In this document: positions 3,475 through 53,154 of the stretch, one piece after another
Position numbering within the stretch: position 1 is the stretch's first letter
How the letters are laid out: each line of letters begins with the position of its first letter
Assembly (NCBI GenBank): GCA_040753085.1
Contig: JBFMHI010000006.1
Coordinates: 1 to 54,762, forward strand
Direction of reading: 5' to 3'
DNA: 54,762 nt
DNA from: a bacterium
GTDB lineage: Bacteria; UBA9089; JASEGY01
The notes under the pieces: generated by a model
Seen by the model: only the letters and a program-made list of their open reading frames with translations
Told to the model about the DNA's origin: nothing
Database searches by the model: none
Program-made: the position numbers and the translations under genes

Positions 3475-3660
3475 GTAACTACTCAGTCCCTAAGACACAA
3501 AGATTACCAATAATAGCACACGGATTACACGGATGAGACGGATTGACACGGATAAAAATTTATTAGAAAAAATCCGTGAGAATCCGCCAAAATCTGTGTC
3601 ATCCGTGTGCTATTCCATCATTCTTTTCGTGCCTTAGTGTCTTAGTGGCTGAATAGTTAC
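3475..3660. mobile_element. Palindromic miniature element, GTAACTACTCAG termini
   Basis: The left end reads GTAACTACTCAGTCCCTAAG and the right end CTTAGTGTCTTAGTGGCTGAATAGTTAC-like, giving imperfect terminal inverted repeats. The core is a second, nested inverted repeat built from cacggat words (AATAGCACACGGATTACACG against CATCCGTGTGCTATT). There is no open reading frame. The element sits between two genes of the glutamate synthase island and ends 14 bases before the next ATG. Confidence 0.7.
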
Positions 3661-3674
3661 GATGAGGACAAGAT

Positions 3675-6320
3675 ATGAACTGGGCTAAAAAAATTATTAC
3701 TTCCAGACAGAATTTGATCAAGGCCTTCCCCCCTCCCAGGGCCAAAAAATCCGAAGAGGAAGGCGGCTGCGGGGTAACGGGCTTTGCGTGCTCTATTCCG
3801 GTAAGTGGCAAACACATCTTTGAGCCATCCATCCAGATGCACAACCGGGGTAATGGCAAAGGCGGAGGGATTGCCGCCGTAGGATTTTCACCGGATGAGA
3901 TGGGTGTGTCTCAAAAAATTCTGAAAGAGGATTATCTGCTGCAGATCGCTTTACTTGAGCCTGGAGCTGGCCAAGATATAGAAGATAAATTTATCACGCC
4001 TTTCTTTAAGGTGGATAAAGCGGAACGAATTCCTACAATCAAAGATTTTCGCGATCTCCCCAGCTTAGAGGTAAAGCCGCCAGATGTGCAGCGATACTTT
4101 GTCAGGGTGAAACCGGATGTCCTGCGTGATTTTATCACCCGGAACAACCTCGAAAATATGGACCTTAGACGGGCGGAAGATGAATTTATCTATCAGAACA
4201 GCTTTAAGCTCAATCAAAAGTTCTATGCCTCTCTGGGGGAAAAGGCCGCTTTTGTCCTTTCCCAAGGGCGGAATATGATGATCTTAAAGATTGTTGGTTA
4301 CGCCGAGGATGCGGTTAAATACTACCAATTGGAAAACTTTAAGGCCCACATCTGGATCGCCCATCAACGTTATCCTACTAAGGGCAGAGTCTGGCATCCT
4401 GGCGGGGCTCATCCCTTCTGCGGTATGAATGAGGCCCTGGTTCATAATGGCGATTTCGCCAATTACCACTCGGTCACAGAATACCTGAAACAAAGAGGCT
4501 ACCACCCCCTCTTTTTGACCGATACGGAAGTGAGTATCCTTGTCTTTGATTTACTGAACCGGGTCTATGGTTATCCCTTAGAATACATCATTGAGGCCTT
4601 GGCTCCTACCACAGAGCTTGATTTTGACCACTTACCCGAGGAAAAACAGAGAATATACCGCCTAATTCAGGCTCATCATATCCACGGCTCCCCTGATGGC
4701 CCCTGGTTCTTTATTATTGCCAGGAATAATCCTTATGAGGATTATCTCCAGTTAATCGGCATTACGGATACCGCAATGCTTAGGCCACAGGTCTTTGCCT
4801 TATATGAAGGGCCGAGCCGGCCTGGCGAGCCGAGCCGGCCTGGCGGGCCGAGCCGGCCTGGCGAGCAAATTCAAATTGGCCTCATCTGCTCGGAAAAGCA
4901 GGCCATTGATGCCACCCTACATTCTCTGGCCAAGGAGGATCCCAGATTCTCTCTGGTGGCGGATAAATACTGGAATGCCAGGGGCGGAAGCCATACTGAT
5001 GGGGGCGCTTTTATATTTACCCTTAAGGATGGGGGGTTAATCTGCACCGATAAATTCGGCCGGAGAATTTCAGCGCCGCCGGATCAGAAGTATACTGATC
5101 TAACCTTAGAGATCAATACCCCTCCATCGGCGACGTCCATCAAAGAGAGAATAAAGGAGTCGGCAGAGGCCTTCGGATTATTTGAATATATTAAAGGAGA
5201 GATTTCCCATTGGGATTATAACTGTTTTAGATGGGCGTGTGATGAGATGGTAAAGGCCTCTTTTAAGGAAGATTCAGTTAAAGGGACCATGATTGAGGCC
5301 TTGACCTTGCTTAACGACTTGCCGTACGATACCACCGATAAGAAGAGAAGCTTAATCCTGCAGATAATTAGAGAGGCGCTCCATCAGATTTTCTCTCGCA
5401 CACCATATCTGAATGAAAAAGGCGACTCTCTTTACCGGCTGATTGATTGGGAAAGAAGAGAGAGTTTAAGAAAGCCAAAAGAAAGAGAAGAAGTGCTGAT
5501 TATAAATGCCTCCTCCTTTCCTCCGGAGGGGGATGATTGTGACGCTCGAGTGATTGTTGAGGCGTATGCTCTTGGATGGAAGCGTTTTATGGCTTATGGA
5601 TATAAAGGACAGAGATTCTGTGGCTGCGGGTTAGGTCCTGAGACAAAAGGTGTAAGGATAGATGTTTATGGTTCTTCCGGTGATTACCTGGCTTCAGGAA
5701 TAGATGGGCTGGAAATATATGTCCATAACAATGCTCAGGATCAGTTGGGACAGATTATGAAGGCGGGAAAGCTGGTGGTTTACGGCGATGTAGGGCAAAC
5801 CTTCATGTATGGAGCCAAAGGCGGCCAAGTATACGTCCTGGGTAATGCGGCCGGAAGGCCCCTCATTAATGCCGTGGGCAAGCCGAGGGTAGTCATAAAC
5901 GGCACCTGCCTTGATTATCTGGCCGAGTCATTTATGGCCGGAGACTCTCTTAAGGGCGGAGGGTTTGTTATCCTGAATGGGGTTATGCGCGATGATAAAG
6001 GCCGAATCCGTGAGCAACCCACCCCCTATCCCGGCAGCAATCTCTTCTCCCTGGCATCTGGTGGGGCCATCTATCTTAGAGACCCCCACAGAAAAGTAGT
6101 GAAAGAACAGTTAAATGGTGGGGAATTTGTGCCTTTAACCAAAGAAGACTGGGAGGTCATCCTTCCTTATCTTAAGGAGAATGAAAGGATTTTTGGGATA
6201 TCCATCGAGGATGATCTTTTGAGGGTAGATGGGGAAAAGAGAAGGCCGGAAGAGGTCTACCGTAAGGTGCGGGCCGTAAAGCTTTCGGTCCTGACCGAGG
6301 TGGCCAGTGCTGAGGAATAG
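3675..6320 (+). CDS. Glutamate synthase glutaminase (class II amidotransferase) fused to GXGXG domain
   Basis: This 881-residue protein joins two pieces that are separate genes (GltB1 and GltB3) in many archaea. Residues ~32-450 are an Ntn-type class II glutamine amidotransferase: Cys32 in GGCGVTGF would become the N-terminal nucleophile after removal of a 31-residue propeptide, and AHQRYPTKG plus EALVHNGDF are typical substrate-site phrases. Residues ~640-830 are the GXGXG beta-helix (GCGLGPETKG, YVHNNAQDQLG, GDVGQTFMYG, GGFVILNG). It supplies ammonia to the synthase subunit upstream. An in-frame triplicated 18-bp block (4811-4864, residues ~380-397, PSRPGE repeats) looks like a recent expansion. 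GAGGACAAGAT before the ATG is the probable ribosome site. Confidence 0.88.
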   Translation: MNWAKKIITSRQNLIKAFPPPRAKKSEEEGGCGVTGFACSIPVSGKHIFEPSIQMHNRGNGKGGGIAAVGFSPDEMGVSQKILKEDYLLQIALLEPGAGQDIEDKFITPFFKVDKAERIPTIKDFRDLPSLEVKPPDVQRYFVRVKPDVLRDFITRNNLENMDLRRAEDEFIYQNSFKLNQKFYASLGEKAAFVLSQGRNMMILKIVGYAEDAVKYYQLENFKAHIWIAHQRYPTKGRVWHPGGAHPFCGMNEALVHNGDFANYHSVTEYLKQRGYHPLFLTDTEVSILVFDLLNRVYGYPLEYIIEALAPTTELDFDHLPEEKQRIYRLIQAHHIHGSPDGPWFFIIARNNPYEDYLQLIGITDTAMLRPQVFALYEGPSRPGEPSRPGGPSRPGEQIQIGLICSEKQAIDATLHSLAKEDPRFSLVADKYWNARGGSHTDGGAFIFTLKDGGLICTDKFGRRISAPPDQKYTDLTLEINTPPSATSIKERIKESAEAFGLFEYIKGEISHWDYNCFRWACDEMVKASFKEDSVKGTMIEALTLLNDLPYDTTDKKRSLILQIIREALHQIFSRTPYLNEKGDSLYRLIDWERRESLRKPKEREEVLIINASSFPPEGDDCDARVIVEAYALGWKRFMAYGYKGQRFCGCGLGPETKGVRIDVYGSSGDYLASGIDGLEIYVHNNAQDQLGQIMKAGKLVVYGDVGQTFMYGAKGGQVYVLGNAAGRPLINAVGKPRVVINGTCLDYLAESFMAGDSLKGGGFVILNGVMRDDKGRIREQPTPYPGSNLFSLASGGAIYLRDPHRKVVKEQLNGGEFVPLTKEDWEVILPYLKENERIFGISIEDDLLRVDGEKRRPEEVYRKVRAVKLSVLTEVASAEE

Positions 6321-6326
6321 AAGTCA

Positions 6327-7601
6327 TTAGTGTCTTCTGGCTCCAGTCACCAAAGGTAATCGGACGGCAAACTCTGTTTCGGTTTGGAAGAATTCCGGCT
6401 CCGGATAACCCTGTTCTTTCAGTTCTCTTTTGCTGTTGGCTATCCCTAAGCCTAAGCAGGTCATAAGGCCTTGAAGGAATAAGAAATGGGTAACCAGTGG
6501 GTTTCTTGAAAAGCGACGATTTACTACCTCTTCTACTCTCATCCCTCTGGGAAGAATACCCGGGGAGTAGAACTCAAAGCGGTCATCAAATAATAGAACC
6601 TTTACGGAGGAATCAGTCCGGGAATAATCCCGGTGAGCCACGGCATTGGTGATGATCTCTTTTAGAACTTCCTCCGGATACCAGCCGAATTCACTGCTCA
6701 GGGAAAAGCGGTTATTATCTTTGATAAACCTTACCCCTCCTTCTATTTGAGCCGTCAGGGTTCCCTTTATCTCCATCCGATCGGTTATCTCTTCTCCTTC
6801 GCCGCAGATTACCTTAACCACTGCCTGAGGCAGATATCGCTGGGGCTTTCTACCAAAGCAAAGCAGACCCCCTACCGTAGGGACTGCCTCCGGCTTATAA
6901 TCAGTCAGTATCTCCATATTCCTTAAAAGATCGATCAGAGAGATATCGAGATCATCTATCGAACGGTCGTATACCTTCTGAAGATAAGAATCTACCTTAT
7001 TAAGATCAATGTCTTCTAATTTACTGCCGCGGATGGGAGAGAGATCGAAGGCCGCCGGGAGAGGTGAGGCCACAAAGCCGCTCTTTTCCTTCTGGCTTTC
7101 TTCTTTTTGCCTTAGAACACGAGGTAACGAAGGGAAGTCAATCCTCTCTTCGAGTTTTTGTCTGTGATCCGGTTGGATATATTCTTGCTTGAATTTCTCG
7201 ATGGCGCTAAGCACTTCTTTCTCCAGACCCCTGGCCGGGATGTGCCTTGCCCCCCTACCCAGGACAATCAGCTTTAATTGACGATCTGAGGTGGCTACTT
7301 TAATGGAACCGGGTTCAGGACTCTGGTAAACCTGTCTTTCGATGTAGGTATCGGCTGTCTCTCCCGGCTTCGAGTAGATGACCTTTATGGATTCATCCCC
7401 TGAAATATCTCCTGGGCTTTGAGTTCCCTTTTGGCCGTCAAAGACAACGGTTACCTCTACGCCGGTGCAGTCCTGATACTCGGAAAGATACCGGATAAGC
7501 TCGGCTCTCGCCCCTTGCAAGCCTGCCTTCCTGATAAGCTTTCTTAGTTCCGGCCAGGCATTAAGTATATTATAACCATCAACAATCAAGGAAGAAGACA
7601 A
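6327..7601 (-). CDS. NYN-domain (YacP/Rae1-like) nuclease fused to GHKL-type ATPase domain
   Basis: Residues 1-165 are a NYN domain of YacP/Rae1 type: LIVDGYNILNAWPEL opens the fold, VVFDG and TADTYIER carry acidic residues, and VATSDRQLK is the usual later motif. Rae1 is a ribosome-associated mRNA endonuclease. After a ~50-residue linker, residues ~200-420 resemble the C-terminal HATPase_c_4 part of AlbA_2/RecG-like proteins: EIITNAVAHRDYS is an N-box and LGIANSKREL sits where a glycine-rich ATP lid motif is expected. The usual AlbA_2 domain is missing, replaced by the NYN domain. Start is TTG, directly at the first strand of the NYN fold. Seven bases separate it from the upstream enzyme gene, so they are probably co-transcribed. 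Cellular function is unknown. Confidence 0.72.
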   Translation of the reverse strand: MSSSLIVDGYNILNAWPELRKLIRKAGLQGARAELIRYLSEYQDCTGVEVTVVFDGQKGTQSPGDISGDESIKVIYSKPGETADTYIERQVYQSPEPGSIKVATSDRQLKLIVLGRGARHIPARGLEKEVLSAIEKFKQEYIQPDHRQKLEERIDFPSLPRVLRQKEESQKEKSGFVASPLPAAFDLSPIRGSKLEDIDLNKVDSYLQKVYDRSIDDLDISLIDLLRNMEILTDYKPEAVPTVGGLLCFGRKPQRYLPQAVVKVICGEGEEITDRMEIKGTLTAQIEGGVRFIKDNNRFSLSSEFGWYPEEVLKEIITNAVAHRDYSRTDSSVKVLLFDDRFEFYSPGILPRGMRVEEVVNRRFSRNPLVTHFLFLQGLMTCLGLGIANSKRELKEQGYPEPEFFQTETEFAVRLPLVTGARRH

Positions 7602-7608
7602 TTGTTAT

Positions 7609-9408
7609 TTACAGCTCCATCTTGACCAGGTCTTCAAACTTCATATCTATTTCCAGGATACCGACAATCTCTTCATTTTCATCCCGAATAGGGGCAGAGA
7701 CGGTGATACAAAGGGCCCCGGTTATGCGAGAAGTATAGAAATCAGTCACATAGGGGTTGCCGTCTTCTATGGGATGAATAAACCAATTCCGGTCGGAAAA
7801 ATTTTCATCCCGAAGGAGATTTTCATACTTAGCCCGGTCAGCCCGTTGGGTCACATTCCGGGTTACCCTGTTTCCTTCCGCATCAACGATATAGATGAGC
7901 TGGATAAAATGATTATCCTCTACGGTTCGGATCATAACCGGCAGACAGCGGTTAACGTCCATAGATCTAATCTCCGGATCCTCAACCATAGATATAACCA
8001 ATTCTCGACCTATCCGACCGGCCCTCAATTTAAGTTCTTCCAGATTGGAGTGGAATAGTTGAGGCAGATGCTTCTTGACCTGGGCATACATCTCCCTTTC
8101 TGCGATAGAGGTCACCCGTCCGGTCTTATACTGTTCTTCCACCCATTTCTGGATCTTGATTACCTCGGGATGCCGCTTATCGATCATCCTGTCACCGGTC
8201 AATTCCAGATGCCGGTTAATCCAGTGGGCAATCCCGGCAATCCCGGATTTATCACTTATGGCCACCTCTAAGGGACGATTAAGAAGCAGCTTGGTATCAA
8301 AGATATTGTAGATCTCCTCATCCTTCAGGGCGCCATCGGCATGAATGCCGGCCCAGGTGGTATTAAAATTAGTTCCGACAAAGGGATAATTGGCTGGTAT
8401 CCGGGTTTTGAGTTCACGGCGGAAATATTCAGCCATCTCAGTAATAGCGGTTGTATCCACCCCCTCTGTTTCTCCTTTGAGGCCAAGGTATTCTATGAGC
8501 AAACCTTCAATGGGGGGATTGCCGGTGCGTTCTCCCAGGCCCAATAATGTCCCGTTGGCGGCTGAGCATCCATAAAGCCAGGCGGTAGTTGCATTGATGA
8601 GAACGTGGTGGAAGTCATTATGTCCATGCCATTCCAGTTGAGCTGAGGGAACGCCGCCTTCGTGAATAAGACCATAGATCAATTTGGGCACGCTTCTGGG
8701 CAAGGCCGCTCCCGGATAGCTCACGCCATATCCCAGGGTATCACAGACCCGCACCTTGACCGGAAGCCCGCTTTCTTCAGAGAGCTTCCTCAGTTCCTGA
8801 ACAAAAGGAATGACAAATCCGTAGAAGTCAGCCCGAGTGATATCCTCTAAATGACATCTGGGAGTAATTCCGGCCTCCAGGGCGGTCTTAACCAAATCCA
8901 GATATCCTTCCATGGCCTTTTTCCTGTCTTTTTTCAATTTTAGAAAGATATGATAATCTGAACACGAGGTAAGAATCCCTGTTTCGGAAAGACCCATCTG
9001 CTTGACCAGTTGAAAGTCTTCTTTCACCGCTCTTATCCAGCCGGTTACTTCCGGATATTTATACCCCCTTTCCAGGCATTTCTCCACTGCCTCCCGGTCT
9101 TTGTCACTATAAAGGAAAAATTCACTCTGTCTTATTACCCCCCTTTCACCGCCCATCCGATGAAGAAAATCAAACAGAGTCACTATTTGATCCGGCGTAT
9201 AAGGTGGCTGAGCTTGCTGTCCATCCCTGAAGGTAGTGTCGGTAATCCATATCTCTTCAGGCGGCTCCATAGGGATGATCTTGTAATCAAAAGGGATGCG
9301 GGGAACCTTATAGTAAGGAAAGATGTCACGCAGAAGCTCTGGTTCGTCACGTTCTAATAAGGGATATGTAGCCGCTGGTCTGGCTAAGACTTCCTTTAAT
9401 TTAGTCAT
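7609..9408 (-). CDS. HMGL-like acyl-CoA condensing enzyme (probable Re-citrate synthase) with Cache-like C-terminal domain
   Basis: A ~599-residue protein. Residues ~50-450 are a DRE-TIM condensing enzyme of the isopropylmalate/homocitrate synthase superfamily: DTTFRDGQQ holds the metal Asp and catalytic Arg, LEWHGHNDFH the two metal His, and GNPPIEGLL follows. The IRQSEFFLYSDKDREAVEKC wording recalls the group I associate with Re-citrate synthases of anaerobes, which make citrate from acetyl-CoA and oxaloacetate. The last ~120 residues are unlike any synthase: NWFIHP, GNPYVTDFY, ITVSAPIRDENEEIVG and DMKF match PDC/Cache ligand-sensing folds, normally extracellular. No transmembrane segment is seen, so sensing would be cytoplasmic. 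AGGAGGTGA eight bases before the ATG fixes the start. The exact acyl acceptor is uncertain. Confidence 0.68.
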   Translation of the reverse strand: MTKLKEVLARPAATYPLLERDEPELLRDIFPYYKVPRIPFDYKIIPMEPPEEIWITDTTFRDGQQAQPPYTPDQIVTLFDFLHRMGGERGVIRQSEFFLYSDKDREAVEKCLERGYKYPEVTGWIRAVKEDFQLVKQMGLSETGILTSCSDYHIFLKLKKDRKKAMEGYLDLVKTALEAGITPRCHLEDITRADFYGFVIPFVQELRKLSEESGLPVKVRVCDTLGYGVSYPGAALPRSVPKLIYGLIHEGGVPSAQLEWHGHNDFHHVLINATTAWLYGCSAANGTLLGLGERTGNPPIEGLLIEYLGLKGETEGVDTTAITEMAEYFRRELKTRIPANYPFVGTNFNTTWAGIHADGALKDEEIYNIFDTKLLLNRPLEVAISDKSGIAGIAHWINRHLELTGDRMIDKRHPEVIKIQKWVEEQYKTGRVTSIAEREMYAQVKKHLPQLFHSNLEELKLRAGRIGRELVISMVEDPEIRSMDVNRCLPVMIRTVEDNHFIQLIYIVDAEGNRVTRNVTQRADRAKYENLLRDENFSDRNWFIHPIEDGNPYVTDFYTSRITGALCITVSAPIRDENEEIVGILEIDMKFEDLVKMEL

Positions 9409-9476: not shown

Positions 9477-9713
9477 GTATCTACTCAAAATCAAGTTGAG
9501 AACTTGTCAATTGCGAGCCCGAACGGAGTGAGGGGAGGGAACAATCCGTCCTGTTTCGCCTTCGGCTTGCAGTCCTCGCATTACGACACAGCCTCTTCAA
9601 GGGTAATAATATTGCCCGCCCATTTCACCCTCACCCTATCCCTCTCCCATCAAGGGAGAGGGAATTTTGCTTTATCTCCCAACTAACTGCTTAACTTAGT
9701 TTTGAGTAGTTAC
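9477..9713. mobile_element. Miniature inverted-repeat element, copy 1 (CTACTCAAAA termini)
   Basis: The left end GTATCTACTCAAAATCAAGT is matched in inverse by the right end ACTTAGTTTTGAGTAGTTAC. The last 111 bp (9603-9713) are identical at 108 positions to 27259-27369, including the internal palindrome CCCTCTCCCATCAAGGGAGA. No coding capacity for a transposase is seen. The remaining gap to the terminator at 9865 holds only a half-element ending GCGGCTGAATAGTTAC at 9815. Confidence 0.75.
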
Positions 9714-9864
9714 CGAATTTTTAAGACGATTGCCTTGTTCGTGCTTGGGCATACGCTAAACAGATACAAAAAATCAGTGTTTCATCCGTGTAAATCCGCG
9801 GCTGAATAGTTACATTAAATTTATCCTGAATAGAGCTAAAAGTCAAGTCTTTTTTGCCATAAAA

Positions 9865-18453: not shown

Positions 18454-19434
18454 TCAAGATTTAAGAGACAATTCCTTCTTTAGTTCGCCTCTGGTAACGG
18501 TCGCTGTCCCCACTTTACCGACCACAATTCCGGCCGCATAATTGGCCAAAGTGGCTGCTTCCAACAAACCGGCGCCGGAGGCTAAGGCCAGCGTAAAGAC
18601 AGCGACTACTGTATCTCCGGCCCCGGTAACATCATAGACTTCTCTGGCTACGGTGGGGATATGAGTTACTTCCCCTTGCCGGGGAAAGAGGGACATTCCT
18701 TTTTCTCCCCTGGTGATCAAGACCGCCTCGCATTCCAAAAGGTTAAGAAGAAACCAACCGACTTCGATTAGGCTCTCTTCATCAGTAATAGGCTTGCCTG
18801 ATAGAAGACCGGCCTCGTGATGATTGGGGGTGAGCACAGAGATACGCTTATATGATTTCAAATGTCCTATCTTGGGATCGACCACCACGGGTCGATCAAA
18901 CTCTCTGGATAGAGCCACCAGCTTTTCAATAAGGGGTGGGATAATGACCCCCTTGCCATAGTCAGAAATAATAACCGCGTCTATGTCAGAGATAAGGCCG
19001 CCACAATAATCAAGTATGGTCTCCGTCAAGGCCGGGTCTATCTCTTTTCTGTTTTCCCGATCCACCCGAACCACCTGTTGTGAATGGGCAATGATTCTTG
19101 TTTTTTGTATAGTCGGCCGCTCCTGGACGGCCAAGATCCCCTCTGTGCCAATCTTCCTTTGCTTCAGGTCAGCCGTTAAGTCTTCACCTATTTTATCCTG
19201 GCCAATGACGCCGACCAGTTCTGCCTTCCCTTCCAGGGAGATAATATTGTTGGCCACATTGGCTGCCCCCCCCGGAAGGATGGTCTCATCGACTACCTCC
19301 ACCACCGGCACCGGCGCCTCAGGCGAGATTCGATTTACCCGACCCCAGACAAATTCATCCGCCATAATATCGCCCACCACCAACAGCCTTGAATTTTCAA
19401 ACCGGTCTATGATATTTAGGAGATTAGTCATCAT
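18454..19434 (-). CDS. rfaE1: D-glycero-beta-D-manno-heptose-7-phosphate kinase (RfaE1/HldE kinase domain)
   Basis: A 326-residue PfkB/ribokinase-family sugar kinase. VVGDIMADEFVWGRVNRISP and PVPVVEVV are characteristic of the heptose kinase; LPGGAANVANNI is the ribokinase GG motif, and DVTGAGDTVVAVF holds the catalytic Asp near residue 270. It phosphorylates heptose-7-phosphate at C1 for ADP-heptose synthesis, a core lipopolysaccharide sugar, supporting a diderm envelope. The second (adenylyltransferase) half of bifunctional HldE is absent. The ATG directly abuts a CGGATTT array, leaving no Shine-Dalgarno sequence; a second ATG follows at codon 2. Confidence 0.85.
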   Translation of the reverse strand: MMTNLLNIIDRFENSRLLVVGDIMADEFVWGRVNRISPEAPVPVVEVVDETILPGGAANVANNIISLEGKAELVGVIGQDKIGEDLTADLKQRKIGTEGILAVQERPTIQKTRIIAHSQQVVRVDRENRKEIDPALTETILDYCGGLISDIDAVIISDYGKGVIIPPLIEKLVALSREFDRPVVVDPKIGHLKSYKRISVLTPNHHEAGLLSGKPITDEESLIEVGWFLLNLLECEAVLITRGEKGMSLFPRQGEVTHIPTVAREVYDVTGAGDTVVAVFTLALASGAGLLEAATLANYAAGIVVGKVGTATVTRGELKKELSLKS

Positions 19435-19476
19435 CGGATTTCGGATTTCGGATTTCGGATTTCGGATTTCGGATTT
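19435..19476. repeat. Heptanucleotide array, CGGATTT (6 units)
   Basis: Six nearly perfect CGGATTT units end at the base before the heptose-kinase start codon (minus strand). The repeat therefore occupies the place of that gene's ribosome-binding site. Confidence 0.92.
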
Positions 19477-19483
19477 ATTTTTC

Positions 19484-19631
19484 GTAACCGTTCAGCACAT
19501 GATGCTGGATGCTCGATCCTCGATCCTCGATGCTCGATCTTCGATGCTGGTAAAGGATTCAGTATCCAGGATCGAGCATCCAGGATCGAGCATCCAGGAT
19601 CGAGGTTGTGCCTTAGTGGCTGAACGCTTAC
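19484..19631. mobile_element. Palindromic miniature element with 7-bp-repeat core
   Basis: The left end GTAACCGTTCAGCACATGAT is inverted on the right as GTGGCTGAACGCTTAC. The core is an array of 7-bp words (GATGCTC, GATCCTC, GATCTTC, GATGCTG) followed by its own inverted copy (ATCCAGG, ATCGAGC), so the transcript would fold into one long hairpin. No ORF. Confidence 0.8.
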
Positions 19632-19638
19632 AATTTTT

Positions 19639-20064
19639 CTAATCCGCAATCCGCAATCCGCAATCCGCAATGTAGACCGCCTGGGCCAGAGCCAATTGGG
19701 CGGTATGAGTGAGGGTAATCAGGATATGTCCCTGACCGGCCAGCTCTTTGGCCTTGCCTTCAAGATGAACCGCCGGTTTTCCGGTGTTACCCCTTCTTAT
19801 CTCAATATCCTTCCAGGGGCATCGAAGCCCCAGGGCCTTTATAACCGCCTCCTTGCCGGCGAACCTGGCCGCCAGATGCTCAGCCGGCCTGGCCCGGCTC
19901 AAGCAGTAATTTAGCTCCGCCGGGGTAAAGACCTTCTCCAGAAATCGCTGGCCCCATTTGGTTACGGCGCTCTCTATCCTTTCGACCTCAACCAGATCCA
20001 CTCCCAAACCTTTTAGTTCTGAGTTTCGCACCCACTTCGTGGGTACCCGGAGTTTCGAGTTCAT
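19639..20064 (-). CDS. acpS: Holo-[acyl-carrier-protein] synthase, extended by repeats at both ends
   Basis: The central ~115 residues are a normal AcpS, which transfers 4'-phosphopantetheine from CoA to acyl carrier protein. Visible motifs are GLGVDLVEVERIE (metal Asp), FTPAELNYC, HLAARFAGKEAVIKALG (catalytic stretch) and TLTHTAQLALAQAV. It is unusual at both ends. The first 18 residues (MNSKLRVPTKWVRNSELK) precede the normal N-terminus and are encoded by a palindromic repeat (20028-20049), and the last nine (ADCGLRIAD) by CCGCAAT-type 7-bp repeats. Its ATG overlaps the TonB-like gene's stop by four bases (ATGA), so translation is probably coupled, and the long start is likely real. Confidence 0.9.
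   Translation of the reverse strand: MNSKLRVPTKWVRNSELKGLGVDLVEVERIESAVTKWGQRFLEKVFTPAELNYCLSRARPAEHLAARFAGKEAVIKALGLRCPWKDIEIRRGNTGKPAVHLEGKAKELAGQGHILITLTHTAQLALAQAVYIADCGLRIAD
19644..19671. repeat. Heptanucleotide array CCGCAAT (4 units) inside the acpS 3' end
   Basis: Four CCGCAAT units lie within the acpS reading frame and encode its non-homologous C-terminal tail, including the region of the stop codon. Confidence 0.88.
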
Positions 20065-23179: not shown

Positions 23180-23489
23180 GTAACTACTCAGGTAGATAGG
23201 CTGAAGACTGAAGACCGAAGACTGAAGACTGAAGACTGAAGGCTGAAGGCTGAAGACTGAAGGCTGAAGACTGAAGGCTGAAGGCTGAAGACTGAAGGCT
23301 GAAGACTGAAGACTGAAGGCTGAAGGCTGAAGACTGAAGACTGAAGGCTGAAGGCTGAAGGCTGAAGACTGAAGGCTGAAGTTCAATCATCTACTCACCG
23401 CATTTGTCCCTAAAAGCCTTCAGTCTATTCCCCTGAGTAGCCCGTCCCTAAAAGCCTTCAGTCTTCAGCCTATCTGCCCGAATAGTTAC
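23180..23489. mobile_element. Palindromic element with 26-unit GRCTGAA array
   Basis: The left end GTAACTACTCAGGTAGATAG is inverted on the right as CTATCTGCCCGAATAGTTAC. Positions 23199-23380 hold exactly 26 units of 7 bp (GACTGAA or GGCTGAA, one GACCGAA). The rest contains two inverse words, AAGCCTTCAGTC and CAGTCTTCAGCC. No gene is seen between 23066 and 23803. Confidence 0.85.
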
Positions 23490-26927: not shown

Positions 26928-26947
26928 TAACCTGATTACCGATTACC

Positions 26948-27369
26948 GTATCTACTCAAAATCAAGTTAAAAAAGTAAGCTCATTACAGATTATAGTGCT
27001 ATGGGTTAAGTTTCATCTCCTTTTGTACCGACGACAGCGTTGGCATAAAAGCTTCCCCTCCCTTGATGCTTATCCTTACCCACAAATTGGATAAAAGGAT
27101 GGGGGAAACAAGGATAAACCACGAAGAGCACGAAGGACACGAAGAAAAAAATATTTGTTTTATAATTCTTCGTGCTCTTCGTGTTCTTCGTGGTTTTAAA
27201 AGATGTGGGTAAGGATAAGCTTGATGGGAGGGGTTAGGGGAGGGTGAAATAAACAAGAGTAATAATATTGCCCGCCAATTTCACCCTCACCCTATCCCTC
27301 TCCCATCAAGGGAGAGGGAATTTTGCTTTGTCTCCCAACTAACTGCTTAACTTAGTTTTGAGCAGTTAC
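26948..27369. mobile_element. Miniature inverted-repeat element, copy 2, with nested palindromes
   Basis: The termini GTATCTACTCAAAATCAAGT and ACTTAGTTTTGAGCAGTTAC match copy 1 at 9477-9713. The extra ~185 bp form nested palindromes: CTTATCCTTACCCACA (27069) pairs with TGTGGGTAAGGATAAG (27204), enclosing CCACGAAGAGCACGAAG (27119) against CTTCGTGCTCTTCGTG-type words ending at 27193. It looks like element within element. It splits cobT from cobS. Confidence 0.78.
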
Positions 27370-27401
27370 CGATTACCTAAGCAGTTGCGAAAGGTGTAAC
27401 G

Positions 27402-28133: not shown

Positions 28134-28281
28134 AATTATTCGACCTCTGCCCACCAAAATTCACCCTGGAGACTACTGCTTCACGACGTTTGATTTTAGC
28201 AGTTGAGCTATTTTGACGATATCTGATCGACGGATACCTGACATTGAAACTTTGTAACTATTCAGCCACAAAGCCACTACT

Positions 28282-30824: not shown

Positions 30825-30833
30825 CGGTTTATT

Positions 30834-31043
30834 GTAACCGTTCAGTCACGGATGCACACAGATGAAACACGGATTTCCGTGAACCGTGTCCGGGAGTCGT
30901 GTCCGTGATTAGGTTGTAGGGACAACCCTTGTGGTTGTCCGCCTATGGAACGGACAGGGATAAGCTCTGTCCTTACAACTCCGCCTTCTGTCCTCTATTA
31001 TTTATCCGTGCTAATCCGTGTCAATCAGTGGCTGAACGGTTAC
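30834..31043. mobile_element. Palindromic miniature element, GTAACCGTTCAG termini
   Basis: The left end GTAACCGTTCAGTCACGGAT and the right end CAGTGGCTGAACGGTTAC are inverted. The core repeats cacggat, ccgtgtc and the ACAACCCTTGTGGTTGT palindrome, and resembles the inverse of positions 1-150. The remainder up to 31526 holds a GTAGGGGCGAATAATC palindrome (31121), a terminator, a direct repeat and the hairpin GGGTCGGATGGA/TCCATCCGACCC (31402-31439). Confidence 0.78.
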
Positions 31044-31177
31044 GGTTTATTATGGCTTCTATACGTTCAGATATGATCAGAATAGCTGAATTGAAAGAGA
31101 AACTGGCTAAGTCCAACAGGTAGGGGCGAATAATCATTCGCCCCTACCTTTCTTATCGAGAGCCAACGGTAAAAAGA

Positions 31178-31213: not shown

Positions 31214-31281
31214 CATAAAGACCCTCCTAAGGTCTCTATTACCGTAGATACATTGGCCTTGTGACTGCGAATACCGACCCG

Positions 31282-31379
31282 GTAGGGGCGAAAAATTTTT
31301 CGCCCCTACTCTGGCTACCGGGTGTCTGGGAGTTTAGTGTCTGGTGACCTAATGTTCCGACTATCAGACACACCAGACC
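31282..31379. repeat. Direct repeat, copy 1 (flanks the giant gene)
   Basis: A 98-bp block beginning with the perfect 28-bp palindrome that opens GTAGGGGCGAAAAATTTTTC, then CTGGCTACCGGGTGTCTGGG and TTAGTGTCTGGTGACC. It recurs in the same orientation at 41584-41679 with about ten differences. Confidence 0.82.
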
Positions 31380-40880: not shown

Positions 40881-40993
40881 TTAAATAACCTCCCTGTATT
40901 TAGGATTTGTTTCCCCTCCCGGAAAAAAATATATAAACTACTCAGGTCAAAGAGAACGCGCGGTCATTCCCTTACCTTTACGTAGTTTAAATA

Positions 40994-41177
40994 GTAACTA
41001 CTCAGCCTCTATATAGTAGCCTTACCTAGCGAAACCACAACATATTGTGTTTAGGTGTTTAAAAGTTAGCTAAAATTCCTAAAAAACGGCTTTCTATGCA
41101 ACCTATAAAAGGAGACGAACCACAATATATTGTGTTCTGTAAGCTTCAAAATCAATATGTGGTGGCTGAGTAGTTAC
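40994..41177. mobile_element. Palindromic element upstream of the giant gene
   Basis: The ends GTAACTACTCAGCCTC and GGTGGCTGAGTAGTTAC are inverted. Unlike other copies, the core is A/T-rich unique sequence carrying two near-identical 20-bp words centred on CACAAYATATTGTG. Confidence 0.72.
41036..41134. promoter_or_regulatory. Pair of operator-like palindromes
   Basis: CACAACATATTGTG (41036-41049, one mismatch) and the perfect palindrome CACAATATATTGTG (41121-41134) share the flanks AAC...TTT/C and are 85 bp apart, close to eight helical turns. They lie 150-250 bp upstream of the giant gene. They could bind a dimeric regulator or simply be part of the repeat element around them. Confidence 0.4.
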
Positions 41178-41185
41178 TTTAAATA

Positions 41186-41320
41186 TATTGTTCAGCCACA
41201 AAGCCACTAAGGCACAAAGACACAACCTCGATCCTCGATTCTGGATGCTCGATCCTGGATACTGAATCCTTTACCAGCATCGAGGATCGAGCATCCAGCA
41301 TCATGTGCTGAACGGTTCCA
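41186..41320. repeat. Degenerate palindromic element with CTCGATC/CTGGATG 7-bp words
   Basis: TTGTTCAGCCACAAAGCCAC on the left and TGTGCTGAACGGTT on the right enclose CTCGATC, CTCGATT, CTGGATG words and their inverse (ATCGAGG, ATCGAGC, ATCCAGC). A further right-half copy (GGTGGCTGAACGGTTAC) ends at 41446. Confidence 0.75.
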
Positions 41321-41583
41321 TACTTTTAATAATAAGTAGCACATTAAAATTGATTAAAAAACCAGCCTCCTTTTTACCACGAAAACACAAAGAGACTAAA
41401 TTCATCAATAATTTCCCCTTCGTGCCTTGGTGGCTGAACGGTTACGATAATTATTAATTATTGGGGGTAGGGAGTAGAGAGACGAACGGGATGGGTCTTA
41501 TTGCCGCATATCTACCGACTCTCTCTGCTCCCTAAGATTAAAGAGTTATAGTATTGCCCCCCCAACATTTGCCTTCTCCGCCA

Positions 41584-41679
41584 GTAGGGGTGAAAAATTT
41601 TTCGCCCCTACGCTGGTTACCAGGTGTATAGGAGCTTAGTGTCTGGTGACCTCTTGTTCCGACTACCAGACACCAGACC
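41584..41679. repeat. Direct repeat, copy 2
   Basis: A 96-bp copy of 31282-31379 in the same orientation (GTAGGGGTGAAAAATTTTTC, TTAGTGTCTGGTGACC, CAGACACCAGACC). The two copies bracket the giant gene, 10.3 kb apart. Confidence 0.82.
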
Positions 41680-43578: not shown

Positions 43579-43659
43579 CTCCAACCTCCCCCTTTAGATT
43601 TCGGAATTCGGATGGCGGATTTCGGATTTTGGTGCCGTGGCTGGTCATTTAATACCACC

Positions 43660-43707
43660 GTAACTACTCAGCCACTAACCTTAGTGGCTTTGTGGCTAAG
43701 TAGTTAC
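43660..43707. mobile_element. Minimal 48-bp palindromic element
   Basis: GTAACTACTCAGCCACTAAC is directly followed by its inverse, ending GTGGCTAAGTAGTTAC. This is the shortest copy of the family and shows what the termini look like without a core. Confidence 0.82.
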
Positions 43708-43734
43708 ATTCCGCCATCCGCCATCTGCCATCGA

Positions 43735-48243: not shown

Positions 48244-48254
48244 ACATATTTTTC

Positions 48255-48283
48255 TTGACAAGAGGGGATATTATGAGTATATT
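48255..48283 (+). promoter_or_regulatory. Sigma-70 promoter of speD
   Basis: TTGACA at 48255-48260, 17-bp spacer, TATATT at 48278-48283. The leader to the ATG at 48370 is about 80 bases and ends in TAAGGAGGA. Confidence 0.75.
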
Positions 48284-48369
48284 AACATTTAATAAAAAAG
48301 AAGGCCTTTGGTTAAATCCACGCAGGGGGTGGTGGTGTAATTCTATCGACTTAAGGAGGATAGACTCGG

Positions 48370-48798
48370 ATGTCTGTTTTGGGCCCACATCTTACGATTG
48401 ATGGTTATGATTGTCCTCGTTCCAAGCTGGAGGACCTCGAACTTATTTATCAAGTTTTGGATGAATTTCCAGCCAAAATAGGGATGACCAAGATTATGCC
48501 TCCTTATGTTTTTCGGTACTATGGTAAGATCCCTGAAAAGTGGGGACTTTCTGGTTTTGTTCTCATTGCGGAAAGCCATATTAGCATTCATACTTTTCCG
48601 GAAGGTAAATTTTTGAGTGTGGATATATTTTCCTGCACTCGATTTAATCCGGAGGAAGCGACTTCTTTTATTAAGGAAACCTTTGGGATTAAGCGTCTGG
48701 AGACGAACCTTATAGAGCGGGGTCGTGATTATCCTTTTGATCTAACAAAGGCTCAGATAATTAATTTAGAAGAACGAAGGGCGATAGCATCCAAGTAA
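48370..48798 (+). CDS. speD: S-adenosylmethionine decarboxylase proenzyme
   Basis: A 142-residue prokaryotic SpeD. Self-cleavage between Glu68 and Ser69 in IAESHISIHTFPE would turn Ser69 into the pyruvoyl cofactor; DIFSCTRFNPEEA carries the conserved Cys. The product, decarboxylated SAM, donates aminopropyl groups for spermidine-type polyamines. TAAGGAGGA ten bases before the ATG is a strong ribosome site. The agmatinase-like gene follows after 85 bases; no aminopropyltransferase (speE) lies nearby. Confidence 0.94.
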   Translation: MSVLGPHLTIDGYDCPRSKLEDLELIYQVLDEFPAKIGMTKIMPPYVFRYYGKIPEKWGLSGFVLIAESHISIHTFPEGKFLSVDIFSCTRFNPEEATSFIKETFGIKRLETNLIERGRDYPFDLTKAQIINLEERRAIASK

Positions 48799-48883
48799 CT
48801 GTTTAGGTAAGGGGTGATCAGTGATCGGTAATCAATTACTGCTTCCCCCTCACCGATTACCGATTTCATTATTTCATTAATTA

Positions 48884-49756
48884 ATGGCGTGTCAACTTCC
48901 GTATAACTTTGGGGCTCTACCGAAACAGTTTTCCTCTTATGAGACTTCGAGGGTGGTGATTCTCCCTGTTCCTTATGATCAAACGACTTCTTACCTGGCA
49001 GGGACAAGAGATGGTCCCAGGGCTATCATAACGGCTTCAAGAAACCTGGAGTTATTTGATGAAGAACTGGAGAGGGAAACTTACCAGGCAGGTATTGCTA
49101 CCTTGGATGAACTTATTCCGATAATAAGTGGGCCGCCGGCAATGATCAAGGTAGTAGAAGAAGAGGTTGATGGCCACCTAAAGGCGGGAAAATTCCTGGT
49201 AATGATTGGGGGAGAACATTCCATTACTTTAGGCGCCGTTCGGGCCTTTAAAAAGCGATATGATGATTTATCGGTTCTCTTTTTAGATGCCCACGCTGAT
49301 CTTAGAGATAATTACCAGGGCACTCCATACAGCCACGCTTGTGTGGGAAGAAGGATTAGGGAAGAAGGCGTTTTTCTTATTCAGGCCGGTCTTAGAAGTT
49401 TATCTAAAGAAGAAGCGGATTACATCAGCCGGTCGGGGATAGAAACCTATCGGGCAAGAATGATGATGGAACGCTCTTCCTGGGTAAATCAACTGATTGA
49501 CGCTCTTTCAGGGCGGGTTTATTTGAGCATTGATTTAGATATCCTGGATCCTTCTGTTATGCCAGCGGTGGGGACACCGGAGCCAGGAGGTCTTTCCTGG
49601 TATCAACTTATTGATTTAGTCAGAGATGTAGCCTGCCGCCGTGAAATAGTTGGATTAGATGTAATGGAGTTATGTCCCCAACCAGGGGATATTTCTCCGG
49701 ATTTCCTGGCGGCTAAATTAGTTTATCGGGTGTTAGGATATAGCCTTTGTCCCTAA
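48884..49756 (+). CDS. speB: Agmatinase-family ureohydrolase
   Basis: A 290-residue ureohydrolase with all manganese-site motifs: GGEHSITLG near 108, LDAHADLRD near 135, SHACVGRR near 149 and SIDLDILDPSVMP near 214. It splits urea from agmatine or from an aminopropyl- or carboxyaminopropyl-agmatine, giving putrescine or spermidine. Position after speD supports a polyamine role. The real substrate (agmatine or an aminopropylated form) cannot be read from sequence. No Shine-Dalgarno sequence is clear before the ATG. Confidence 0.9.
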   Translation: MACQLPYNFGALPKQFSSYETSRVVILPVPYDQTTSYLAGTRDGPRAIITASRNLELFDEELERETYQAGIATLDELIPIISGPPAMIKVVEEEVDGHLKAGKFLVMIGGEHSITLGAVRAFKKRYDDLSVLFLDAHADLRDNYQGTPYSHACVGRRIREEGVFLIQAGLRSLSKEEADYISRSGIETYRARMMMERSSWVNQLIDALSGRVYLSIDLDILDPSVMPAVGTPEPGGLSWYQLIDLVRDVACRREIVGLDVMELCPQPGDISPDFLAAKLVYRVLGYSLCP

Positions 49757-49881
49757 AAGCCTTCAGCCTATTCACCTGATCAGCCTTCAGTCTATCCACT
49801 AATTTGAGAGGAGGTGATAGAGAGAAAAATAGGGGAAGATAAGGAGTTATATATTACCAAAACCATAAAGGAGGTGAAACG

Positions 49882-50127
49882 ATGAAACGTTTCATATTAG
49901 GGATAGGTCTTTTTTTCCTGGTGGGTGTGTTGATTAGCTGCACGCCTAAGCCTGAAGAAACTGCCGCCCCTGAAGAACAGGCCATAGAGGAGACTACTCC
50001 GGCCGTAGAGGAGGCCCCGGCCGTAGAGGAGGCCCCGGCCGTAGAGGAAGCCCCGGCAGGGGAAGTGGAACATGCCCCTGAGGGTGGTGAGATGGGAGCC
50101 CAACCAACAGAAAAAGCCCCCGAATAA
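49882..50127 (+). CDS. Small repeat-containing lipoprotein
   Basis: An 81-residue predicted lipoprotein: signal segment MKRFILGIGLFFLVGVLISC with lipobox LISC (lipid-modified Cys20), then a highly acidic, Pro/Ala/Glu-rich tail containing three VEEAPA units encoded by an 18-bp repeat. There is no recognisable domain; such tails are usually extended spacers. AAAGGAGGTGAAACG gives a strong ribosome site. Confidence 0.8.
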   Translation: MKRFILGIGLFFLVGVLISCTPKPEETAAPEEQAIEETTPAVEEAPAVEEAPAVEEAPAGEVEHAPEGGEMGAQPTEKAPE

Positions 50128-50206
50128 TCTGCCCTTCAGGTAAACTTCAAGTAACACAGACTTCCAGTCTATGAAAATCACAGGCAGGATGCCTGTGTCA
50201 CCCATA

Positions 50207-50248
50207 AAAAAGGGAGGAAGAAAGGTTACCCCTTTCTACTCCCTTTTT
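50207..50248. terminator. Bidirectional intrinsic terminator
   Basis: AAAAAGGGAG pairs with CTCCCTTTTT, enclosing a smaller AAAGG/CCTTT stem. T-runs exist on both strands, fitting its place between the convergent lipoprotein and histidine kinase genes. Confidence 0.8.
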
Positions 50249-50253
50249 GAGTT

Positions 50254-51156
50254 TTAGGTTTTATCTGCTACAGGTAAAATAATGGTAAAGGTAGTTCCTT
50301 TACCTCCTTCACTTTGATACTCGATTTTTCCATTATGGTCATGGATGATTCGCTGGACAATAGGTAATCCAAGGCCGGTTCCAGCCTCTTTAGTGGAATA
50401 AAAGAGGTCAAATATTCTCGCCTGTTTTTCCTTGGGGATACCAGAACCAGTATCTGATATAGTAAGAGAAACCTCCCTTCTTTTGCTCCCCGTAGACATG
50501 CTTAGTGTCCCTCCCTTATCCATAGCTGTTTTGGCGTTAAGAATAAGATTGAGGATGGCCCCTTTGAATTGTCGTTTATCCAGGAGAACAGGGGGCAGTG
50601 GATTCTGAAAGGCTTTATTTATTTGAATCTTAGCCCAAAGGCATTCGGGCTCTACGAATCGGATAACTTCTTCTAAAACGTAGTTCAAGTTTTCCTCCTT
50701 CAAGCTAAGTTCCGGTGGTCGGGCAAGCCTCAAAAACTCTGTTAGAATTTCATCCAGGCGAATTAGCTCTTCTTGGATTTCAGAAATCAAATTATGTGCC
50801 TCCCCCTCTTCTCTTCCGGTTCTTTTCAGTGCTTCCCTGAGCAGCTGAAGATTTATATTGAGAGAGTTTAACGGATTTTTTATCTCATGCACCAGGCCGC
50901 CTCCCATGAGACTAATATAGTTGATTCGCTCATCATCTTGAGCTTCAGCTTCCTCCTGCCTGGTCTTGAACAAAAGATACCAGAAGTAGGCGAAAAGCCC
51001 GCCCGTTAAGAAAATACTGCCGACAAAGGTAAATATAGATTTAGTCTGACTGAAGAGGATAAAGAGCCACACCCCAAAGACTATAAATAATATCAACTCG
51101 GGAAGTATGGCCAGCCGTGATCTTACCATTACCTTTATTTTACGCCTTCTCTTCAT
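50254..51156 (-). CDS. Membrane sensor histidine kinase
   Basis: About 300 residues: two membrane segments near the N-terminus (ILPELILFIVFGVWLFILF, FVGSIFLTGGLFAYFWYLLF) with almost no periplasmic domain, a HisKA dimerisation helix with the phospho-acceptor His in GGGLVHEIKNPLNSL, and an ATPase domain with N-box NLILNAKTAMDKGG, G1 DTGSGIP and G2 GTGLGLPIVQRII. The signal is probably sensed in the membrane or by a partner. There is no adjacent response regulator, so it is an orphan kinase. I prefer the ATG at 51156; a GTG eight codons upstream is possible. Confidence 0.88.
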   Translation of the reverse strand: MKRRRKIKVMVRSRLAILPELILFIVFGVWLFILFSQTKSIFTFVGSIFLTGGLFAYFWYLLFKTRQEEAEAQDDERINYISLMGGGLVHEIKNPLNSLNINLQLLREALKRTGREEGEAHNLISEIQEELIRLDEILTEFLRLARPPELSLKEENLNYVLEEVIRFVEPECLWAKIQINKAFQNPLPPVLLDKRQFKGAILNLILNAKTAMDKGGTLSMSTGSKRREVSLTISDTGSGIPKEKQARIFDLFYSTKEAGTGLGLPIVQRIIHDHNGKIEYQSEGGKGTTFTIILPVADKT

Positions 51157-51180
51157 CGAAAATACCCCCAATAAGGACAC

Positions 51181-51478
51181 AGATTAACGCTGATTTACGT
51201 GATGATACCATAATTCAGGCAGGGTGTCAAGAGATTGCCAGGCTTTTGTTCCCTTGGGACTTTTTGCCGGAGCCTCAGAAGAATGTTTCTCGAAAAACAG
51301 AGATAATGAGTTAAATTTAGCTAAGAAGGAGAGATAATCCAGGATTATGCCTATCAATCATCCTGTAGCATCGAATATAGAGCTAAATATTAGCCTCTAA
51401 ATTGCCGAAATATATATCAAATCGATAACTTGAAAAGTGACCAGATAAATGGATTTCCGCATCTAAAGGAGTAGGTCA
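51181..51478. other. Intergenic spacer without recognised features
   Basis: A 298-bp A/T-rich spacer between divergent genes. It ends with AAAGGAG upstream of the SprA-related gene's ATG. I see no clear promoter, repeat or RNA structure. Confidence 0.5.
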
Positions 51479-53038
51479 ATGGCATTAAATGGGATTAACC
51501 CTACTAACTATGAAATATCCCCCTTCCTAGGCAGGGAAGCATTTCTAGAAAATATCCCGCAGCCTTATGCTTCTCCCAGAGGAGAAGAAATAATCGACCG
51601 CTGGGAAAAAGGTCCTAAAGAGCCGACAGAGAAAGGCACCTATCATCCTTCCGATTTCAAACCGCCGTTGCCAGGTGAAGAGACTGAAGCAAACACTTCT
51701 GCTATCCGGGATACCCACGAAGTGGGTGCGCAATCCGCAATCCCGGGTACCCACGAAGTGGGTGCGCAATCCGCAATCGAAGAACTGCCAGGCGATGATC
51801 TTGAGCCTGAATTAGCAGGAAAAAAACCTGGGGTAGAGACCGATTCGCAATCCGCCATCCCGGGTACCCACGAAGTGGGTGCGCAATCCGCAATCGAAGA
51901 ACTGCCGGGCGATGATTTTGAGCCTGAATTGGCAGGAAGAGAACCTGAGGTAGAGACCGATTCACAATCCGCAATCCGCAATCCGCAATCCGCAATCGAA
52001 GAACTGCCGGGCGATGATTTTGAGCCTGAATTAGCAGGGAAAGAACCTGGGGTAGAGACCAATTCACCATCCGCCATCCCGGGTACCCACGAAGTGGGTG
52101 CGCAATCCGCAATCCGCAATCCGCAATCCGCAATTGGAAATGAGACTGAAGCCACGGCTGAAGAATCAGAATCCGCTTCAGAAGAAGCTGAAACTGAGGA
52201 GGAAGAAGAGGAGGAGAAAGAGAAAAAGGTAGGGACAACATCTGAGCAAGACTTATCCGAGGAAGAGCAAGAAGAAGTTCAGGAGTTAAAGCAAAGAGAC
52301 CGGGAAGTCCTCCAGCATGAGCAAGCCCATATAGCGGCAGGCGGACAGTATATCCGCGGGGGGGCAAAATATGAATATGAAACGGGGCCGGATAATAAAC
52401 GCTATGCGGTGGGGGGCGAGGTTTCAATCGACACCTCTTCTGAATCCACGCCTGAGGCCACCGCCCGAAAGGCCCAGGTAATCCGGCGGGCGGCTTTAGC
52501 CCCAAAAGACCCTTCATCCCAGGACAGAAGTGTAGCCGCTCAGGCTTCCAAAATGGAAATGCAGGCCCGGAGGGAGATGGCCGAAGAGGCGCGAGAGGAA
52601 GTTAAAGAGGCAGGAGAAGAGAGTAAATCAGAAGAGAGCAAGAATACTCAGAAGGTAGATGATAACCACCAGATCGAACAGAAAGATGATAATGAAAAGA
52701 TTGCTCAGCCGGAAACAGACAATAAAAAAACCTCTAACTCCAGAGAGGATGAAGAATCTTCGAATACCAGGACATCAGCCGGAGTTGAAAGCCTTGTAAA
52801 CGAAATAGTAAGCAAAAAAGAAGACGGTTCTTTATTGCAAATAGGAGTGGAGGAGAACCCCCTAACTGAAATAACAAACAACGAAAAAGAAGATGGGCCT
52901 CTGTCTCAAATAACGGAGGAGAAAGAGTCTGATAATTCCTCAGAAACAAAGGACGCCAATAATGGGTACGGCGGCTTTGCCCCTTATGCCCGGCTGACTC
53001 GACCAGAAGTAGGTGGCAACATTAACCTTTACGTATAA
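51479..53038 (+). CDS. SprA-related putative metalloprotease-like protein with repeat-derived insert
   Basis: A 519-residue hydrophilic protein without signal peptide. Residues ~265-385 match the SprA-related family: LKQRDREVLQHEQAHIAAGG contains HEQAH, an HExxH-type zinc motif, followed by YIRGGAKYEYETGPD, YAVGGEVSIDTS and KAQVIRRAALAPKDPS. The N-terminal third is a three-fold imperfect repeat (EELPGDDxEPELAG) joined by segments SAIPGTHEVGAQSAI and SAIRNPQSAI. These segments are translations of the palindromic GGGTACCCACGAAGTGGGTG repeat (four copies: 51709, 51745, 51862, 52081) and of 7-bp CCGCAAT repeats that are intergenic elsewhere. The C-terminus is acidic and low-complexity. Protease activity is not proven for the family. 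Confidence 0.75.
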   Translation: MALNGINPTNYEISPFLGREAFLENIPQPYASPRGEEIIDRWEKGPKEPTEKGTYHPSDFKPPLPGEETEANTSAIRDTHEVGAQSAIPGTHEVGAQSAIEELPGDDLEPELAGKKPGVETDSQSAIPGTHEVGAQSAIEELPGDDFEPELAGREPEVETDSQSAIRNPQSAIEELPGDDFEPELAGKEPGVETNSPSAIPGTHEVGAQSAIRNPQSAIGNETEATAEESESASEEAETEEEEEEEKEKKVGTTSEQDLSEEEQEEVQELKQRDREVLQHEQAHIAAGGQYIRGGAKYEYETGPDNKRYAVGGEVSIDTSSESTPEATARKAQVIRRAALAPKDPSSQDRSVAAQASKMEMQARREMAEEAREEVKEAGEESKSEESKNTQKVDDNHQIEQKDDNEKIAQPETDNKKTSNSREDEESSNTRTSAGVESLVNEIVSKKEDGSLLQIGVEENPLTEITNNEKEDGPLSQITEEKESDNSSETKDANNGYGGFAPYARLTRPEVGGNINLYV

Positions 53039-53058
53039 CTCGATGTTCAAGTTTTTTT

Positions 53059-53154
53059 GTAACTATTCAGCCACGGATTAACACGGATTAGCACGGATAA
53101 ATAGTAGATAGCAGAGGACAGAAGATAGAGAACAGAGGTCAGAGAACAGAAGGA
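53059..53154. repeat. Half-element and 7-bp AGAGAAC array
   Basis: GTAACTATTCAGCCACGG begins a left-half element with cacggatta words, followed at 53113-53154 by six 7-bp units (AGAGGAC, AGAAGAT, AGAGAAC, AGAGGTC, AGAGAAC, AGAAGGA). No matching right end is seen before 53310. Confidence 0.75.

Follow-up and report, generated by a model that had tools for sequence, protein, structure and literature searches.

Why should the intergenic DNA of one bacterium be strewn with palindromes that share their ends but differ in what lies between them? The question is raised by the window, the whole stretch of 54,762 bp analysed here, which begins at base 1 of contig C6 in an assembly of 250 contigs. A first-pass annotation of the window had reported a 16-bp terminus, found between genes and mostly as inverted pairs around differing cores, and had suggested an end-recognising process, such as a transposase acting in trans or replication slippage, that captures or regrows cores. 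In their end sequence and in the 8-bp repeat that flanks them, these elements agree with the ISBst12 group (IS66 family), which identifies them, with a probability of about 0.9, as MITEs of that group.

Abundance and anatomy of the terminus

Copies of the terminus GTAACYRYTCAGCCAC with no more than two mismatches number 14 in the window against 0.08 expected, a count reached by none of 100 shuffles. The same search of the 3.05-Mb genome returned 811 matches (415 + 396), or about 266 per Mb, whereas the reversed pattern, used as a control, gave 11 (7 + 4). The arrangement first noticed in the window thus extends far beyond it. All seven pairs in the window are intergenic. In a 655-kb genome sample made up of 40 stretches (600 kb) and the window, neighbouring termini no more than 700 bp apart are oriented '+-' in 92 cases, '--' in 18, '-+' in 12, and '++' in 12, and terminus pairs cover 2.8% of the sequence.

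In nonredundant elements, the common end comes down to about 12 bp, GTAACYRYTCAG, with the near-invariant form GTAA-C/G-YRY-TCAG. Positions 13 to 16 are mostly CCAC, but GGTA and other tetranucleotides also occur. The CCAC belongs to the commonest core type, and other types continue with GGTATAGCT or GGTAGATAGGCTG, so that the terminus described earlier does recur, but over a shared length of about 12 rather than 16 bp. The variable triplet within the end is identical on the left and right in 28 of 37 nonredundant elements, where shuffling yields 13.4 and at most 21. Such matching could reflect a demand of the transposase when it pairs the ends or a correction templated by the hairpin.

Table 1. 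Elements of the window, the orthologous gap compared with the congener, and IS66 copies
Feature	Location	Strand	Details
225-bp type element cut at contig edge	1..150	-	terminus 135-150; inverted repeats I1, I6
MITE, CAC-octamer + ACGGAT-decamer hairpin core	3475..3660	+	both ends present; fold z = -10.3; target duplication not detectable
Single terminus, half element	9798..9813	-	terminus match
MITE, TCGATGC-heptad hairpin core	19484..19631	+	duplication 7/8 (TATTTTTC/AATTTTTC); fold z = -11.5
MITE-like, CTGAAGR heptad array	23180..23489	+	imperfect ends GTAACTACTCAGGTAG, GTAACTATTCGGGCAG; duplication 6/8; repeat family D1, inverted repeat I20
Orthologous cobT-cobS gap	26928..27401		congener's 185-bp element absent; other insertions present
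Single terminus, half element	28254..28269	+	terminus match
Complete MITE, 225-bp/ACGGAT core type (210 bp here)	30834..31043	+	duplication 8/8, GGTTTATT, at 30826-30833 and 31044-31051; core cluster of 18
Complete MITE, 184-bp A+T-rich core type	40994..41177	+	duplication 8/8, TTTAAATA, at 40986-40993 and 41178-41185
Degraded TCGATGC-heptad element	41186..41320	-	left end without GTAAC, right end GGTTCC; directly adjoins the 184-bp element; inverted repeats I2, I5 to 19484-19631
Single terminus, right half of CAC-octamer element	41430..41445	-	terminus; resembles right half of a 257-bp element
48-bp minimal element: two ends and short spacer	43660..43707	+	duplication 6/8
Half element, ACGGAT-decamer type, without right half	53059..53137	+	terminus match; I4
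IS66 transposase L079	ends at 485 and 2221		522 aa, intact; PF03050 E = 1.5e-40; GTAACTACTCAGG at both ends
IS66 transposase L081			broken, two stops; left end GTAACCGTTCAGGTATAGCT, right end GTAACCGTTCAGGTAGGTAGGC
IS66 transposase L082			GTAACTATTCAGC at both ends
IS66 copy L125			degenerate, 2.9 kb; 7/8 duplication

The window holds complete and minimal elements as well as half copies (Table 1); apart from the one cut at the contig edge, the latter appear to belong to known core types and to have been truncated or to have decayed.

The footprint of transposition

Exact 8-bp direct repeats flank 37 of 91 inverted pairs in the 655-kb sample, as against 0.45 with shuffled flanks. No pair among the 91 has exact flanking repeats of 4, 5, 6, or 7 bp, and a single one has a repeat of 9 bp. 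The exact 8-bp repeats indicate that the elements arrived by transposition. With a looser definition of the end, 57 elements carry a repeat matching at seven or eight of eight positions, and a control shifted by three bases yields none. The target sites are 69% A+T. Elements with a verified duplication measure 33 to 468 bp, and one composite measures 555 bp. They have the characters of MITEs: they are short, the usual range of the class being 50-500 bp, and lack transposase coding capacity (PF03050 is absent from the genome), they combine terminal inverted repeats with a target-site duplication, and they form multi-copy subfamilies of homologous members, as the core clusters described below and 13 identical copies of a 184-bp type attest.

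Filled and empty sites relative to a congener add to the footprint. In the congener, a 185-bp element flanked by the duplication TTTTACAC lies between cobT and cobS, and it is missing from the orthologous gap in the window. Between rpsE and rpmD, the present genome carries an 87-bp element (L036:6463-6549, repeat AATTTACG) and, next to it, another short palindromic insert; the two genes are almost adjacent in the congener. The MITE between rpsE and rpmD implies that insertion within such a ribosomal-protein operon is tolerated.

Cores form recurrent and unrelated subfamilies

About a dozen recurrent core types were distinguished, and unrelated cores have only the ~12 bp of the end in common. 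Grouped by core, the elements whose target repeat matches at seven or eight of eight positions form clusters of 18 (ACGGAT/GTAGGGACAAC, about 225 bp), 8 (TCGATGC heptads, 127-177 bp), 6 (184 bp, A+T-rich), 3, 3, and 2 members, besides singletons and partial overlaps; cores are therefore subfamilies and not unique events. The 184-bp type has 26 matches in the genome, of which 13 are complete and identical and the others are mostly cut by contig edges; copies about 90% identical exist in the congener. Heptad number varies among TCGATGC-type members, indicating array growth. The statement that each core differs thus holds for most copies in the window but fails genome-wide. Descent of all copies from a single decaying ancestral core was considered and rejected, as there are several unrelated cores, each present in repeated copies that have diverged little. 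The contrast with ordinary MITE families drawn from the window was overstated, in that each core type is itself a homologous family, in several cases near identical, although the number of unrelated core types on one short end is unusual.

Compared with shuffled sequences, 10 of 15 representative cores fold strongly (z of -3.8 or lower) and three more weakly (z from -2.1 to -3.5), while hairpin folding is absent from the 184-bp core and one 197-bp core. The view that most cores are palindromic thus holds, with these two types as exceptions. Almost all CAC-octamer clusters (64 of 69) and ACGGAT-decamer clusters (71 of 74) of the sample fall inside an element or no farther than 300 bp from a terminus. 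Of 16 TTCGGAT heptad clusters, by contrast, not one was located inside an element.

Some cores are composites. Elements of 381, 303, and 221 bp contain a second end-bearing element. A 340-bp element (L040:14892-15231, repeat TCCGAAAC) holds antisense sequence from a RAYT-type gene found on contig C110, and a 555-bp composite (L358:1486-2040, exact 8-bp repeat GGGATATT) holds antisense RAYT-type fragments of 168 bp (98.2% identity) and 120 bp (98.3%). The gene on C110 matches NCBIfam NF047646 in two collinear pieces with E-values of 0.004 and 2.7e-9, both below the cut-off. Cores that seemed to be uniquely captured recur elsewhere in the genome, and one of them traces to the RAYT-type gene. The proposal that cores are captured is thereby borne out in one case, that of the host RAYT-type gene fragments, and in the nested composites; regrowth of cores found no such backing.

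Further repeats were observed in and around these loci. The RAYT-type gene (L364:1096-1700) is interrupted by a run of GTAGGGGCACCCCTTGTGGGTGCCC-type hairpin repeats, its halves lying in different frames, and GTAG-headed hairpins like those in this gene also sit in the cores of 225-bp MITEs. Inverted TTCGGAT/GCGGATT heptad arrays flank two MITEs of the window (19430-19480 with 19640-19671, and 43597-43632 with 43707-43733), as if a MITE had inserted midway into a larger heptad palindrome. A second repeat family, lying near arms TTATCCTTACCCACA...TGTGGGTAAGGATAA, occurs at 9598-9725 and 27254-27381 (94% identical) and beside L041:15145-15306; in addition, the hairpin CCACGAAG is contained in the 27254-27381 copy and in the one beside L041:15145. 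AATCCGC heptad arrays and a repeated GGGTACCCACGAAGTGGGTGCGC unit lie at 51697-52148 inside a 519-codon open reading frame (51479-53038). A 93-bp repeat with GTAGGGGCGAAAAATTTTTCGCCCCTAC hairpins is found on either side of a 3117-codon gene (31279-31371 and 41581-41673, 88% identical).

Relation to IS66 transposases

IS66 elements have ends starting with GTAA and generate 8-bp duplications (PMC11946415). ISDge4 of Deinococcus, a member of the ISBst12 group for which transposition has been observed, ends in GTGACTACTCAGCA/GTAACTGCTCAGCA and is flanked by an 8-bp repeat (PMC12898284). The present elements likewise begin with GTAA/GTAAC, as in group members, and duplicate 8 bp of target. A transposase gene between the same ends, as the first-pass annotation had proposed to look for, is found in relatives: PF03050 scores above the cut-off in 11 of 19 genomes of the same phylum, and several of these genes lie between such ends (Table 1). 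At its left end, L081 agrees in all of the 20 outermost bp with one end of the 225-bp MITEs, and its right end resembles GTAACTACTCAGGTAGATAGGC, the end of a CTGAAG-heptad element. No intact target duplication was detected at the IS66 genes L079 and L081. Independently of the end sequence, IS66 genes on plasmids of other phyla were chosen by protein similarity alone, and their surroundings were examined for inverted ends, of whatever sequence, accompanied by an exact 8-bp repeat. Such ends were recovered for six of eight genes, and four of the six (from Deinococcus grandis, Geobacillus ISGka4, Chlorohelix, and Planococcus) fit GTAACnnnTCAG at eight or nine of nine fixed positions.

The mobilising gene is not apparent in the genome itself. 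A profile search gave no PF03050 match, and searches with PF03050, PF01797, and two IS66 proteins revealed no intact mobilising gene; the lone IS66 trace is a 43-residue stretch in the last bases of contig C166. The congener, G001, likewise has neither an intact IS66 transposase nor a PF03050 match. The 13 complete identical copies of the 184-bp type nevertheless require that a transposase was active recently. Its gene may reside in an unassembled piece, for example a short repeat-bounded contig, or may have been lost, and the actual mobilising element is presumed, from its relatives, to belong to the ISBst12 group.

Alternative explanations

Absence of an intact IS66 gene from the genome would suit mobilisation by another DDE transposase, for instance of the IS256 or ISL3 type, for which 8-bp repeats are possible, with the likeness to IS66 ends being convergent. 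This is improbable: the ends agree with those of IS66 elements from the same phylum along as many as 20 bp, and also with those of named members of the ISBst12 group, and convergence is unlikely because end sequence and repeat length both agree with IS66. A different kind of enzyme is invoked if the elements are taken for REP/RAYT-like sequences. REP/BIME/RAYT systems leave no target duplication and use a tyrosine transposase, so that single-stranded hairpins would here be moved by an IS200-type enzyme. The palindromic form, intergenic position, and hundreds of copies are in keeping with this, as are the broken RAYT-type gene and the GTAG-headed hairpins (GTAGGGGC...GCCCCTAC) within some cores. 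Precise 8-bp duplications are, however, the footprint of DDE and not of Y1 transposases, the ends match IS66, the 184-bp type has no hairpin, and PF01797 stays below threshold in the genome, where the RAYT-type gene is broken. A REP/RAYT-like origin is thus very improbable. For the ends, the 8-bp duplication refutes it, though some of the core hairpins could still have such an origin.

Least credible is an origin without any transposition, in which replication slippage or template switching enlarged the palindromes and structural demands kept the ends conserved. Copy numbers of heptads and octamers do differ between members, and the agreement of left and right end triplets could be produced by hairpin-templated correction. 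Yet as an account of how the elements spread, such a process is refuted by the 8-bp duplications, and it is contradicted by the many unlinked sites at which identical copies sit between differing flanks and by the filled and empty sites. Slippage may have shaped the arrays after insertion. Taken with the IS66 relatives that carry the same ends, the duplications and the site differences support the end-recognising alternative proposed for the window, that of a transposase supplied in trans.

A possible route of core exchange

Under the MITE interpretation, a transposase of the ISBst12 group, presumably supplied in trans, would recognise the two ~12-bp ends and move any DNA between them while duplicating 8 bp of an A+T-rich target. 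If the transposase requires nothing more than these short ends, cores of unrelated sequence can be carried along. The cargo could be a short-tandem-repeat hairpin, an A+T-rich filler, other elements nested inside, part of a host gene, or next to nothing. Two ends flanking new DNA would suffice for a new transposable unit, as experiments have demonstrated for Tn3-derived TIMEs (PMC4133298). The ends most likely come to flank new cores by nested insertions, deletions, and the use of two nearby ends. Each successful combination of ends and core would then multiply as a subfamily of its own, in some cases very recently.

Occurrence in other phyla

The end followed by one octamer step was also found in metagenome-assembled genomes (MAGs) labelled Elusimicrobia, Nitrospinae, Syntrophaceae, Desulfobacteraceae, Dehalococcoidia, Bacteroidetes, Deferribacteres, KSB1, and Dadabacteria, a list to which binning errors could have added some false phylum labels. 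The 80 MAG loci concerned include 34 pairs whose flanking repeat matches at seven or eight of eight positions, 23 of them exactly, against none in the control. PF03050 was matched in only 4 of 18 genomes of other phyla that carry these termini; the IS66 gene at locus L268 of Nitrospinae breaks off in a run of N, which leaves its right end unreadable.

Octamer arrays are present in 32 of 212 genomes. Several of these genomes (G034, G042, G181, G207, and G219; loci L315-L324, L329, L333, L334, and others) contain dozens of copies of bare CAC-octamer hairpins, AACCAC...GTGGTT or similar, without IS66-type ends, and no target duplication stood out at 13 pairs of such bare hairpins. The octamer hairpin is therefore not bound to the IS66-type end. 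It may have been captured by the ends, or it may have lost them in the other genomes. A tentative reading, possible but short of even odds, is that ISBst12-type ends are an open carrier that has repeatedly acquired pre-existing hairpin families (CAC-octamer, ACGGAT, heptad). In other phyla, these families would also spread independently of the ends; ends and cores would then evolve separately and recombine freely. If so, many CCACNAAGRCAC simple repeats of uncultured bacteria would be bare hairpins or cores of this kind.

Comparison with known systems and significance

Insertion sequences of the ISBst12 group (ISDge4, PMC12898284; ISGka4) share the end GTAACYRYTCAGC and the 8-bp target duplication with the present elements; they encode a single transposase, whereas the elements encode nothing. 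Bacterial MITEs such as Chunjie of Geobacter are similarly short, non-coding, intergenic, bounded by inverted ends and direct repeats, and multiplied in near-identical bursts, but they have been described with homologous cores (PMC10969869), in contrast to the roughly one dozen unrelated cores on one short end seen here. The Tn3-derived TIMEs are likewise non-autonomous, and their ends take up foreign DNA and give rise to mosaics (TIME-COMP, TIME-RES; PMC4133298). They differ in having 38-bp Tn3-type ends, 5-bp repeats, and large captured modules instead of hairpin arrays. Mobile insertion cassettes (MICs) carry passenger genes between IS231/IS4-type ends. As in the MICs of Bacillus cereus (named in PMC3281130), mobility is non-autonomous and IS-driven; the present elements, unlike MICs, consist of tiny cores in hundreds of copies. 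REP/BIME/RAYT sequences resemble them as abundant, paired intergenic palindromes (PMC3733652, PMC2817692). No IS66-derived MITE was found among the papers searched, and searching the literature with the end or core sequences returned chance primer matches only. The mechanism belongs to a known class; what is new here is the high number of unrelated cores per end and the capture of gene fragments by elements without genes.

These elements link intergenic palindromes and short tandem arrays, of which uncultured bacteria hold a large and unexplained class, to a named group of transposases. They also account for part of the fragmentation of such genome assemblies, as about a dozen contigs end within the 184-bp element, and they provide a concrete case of gene-less elements capturing host gene DNA.
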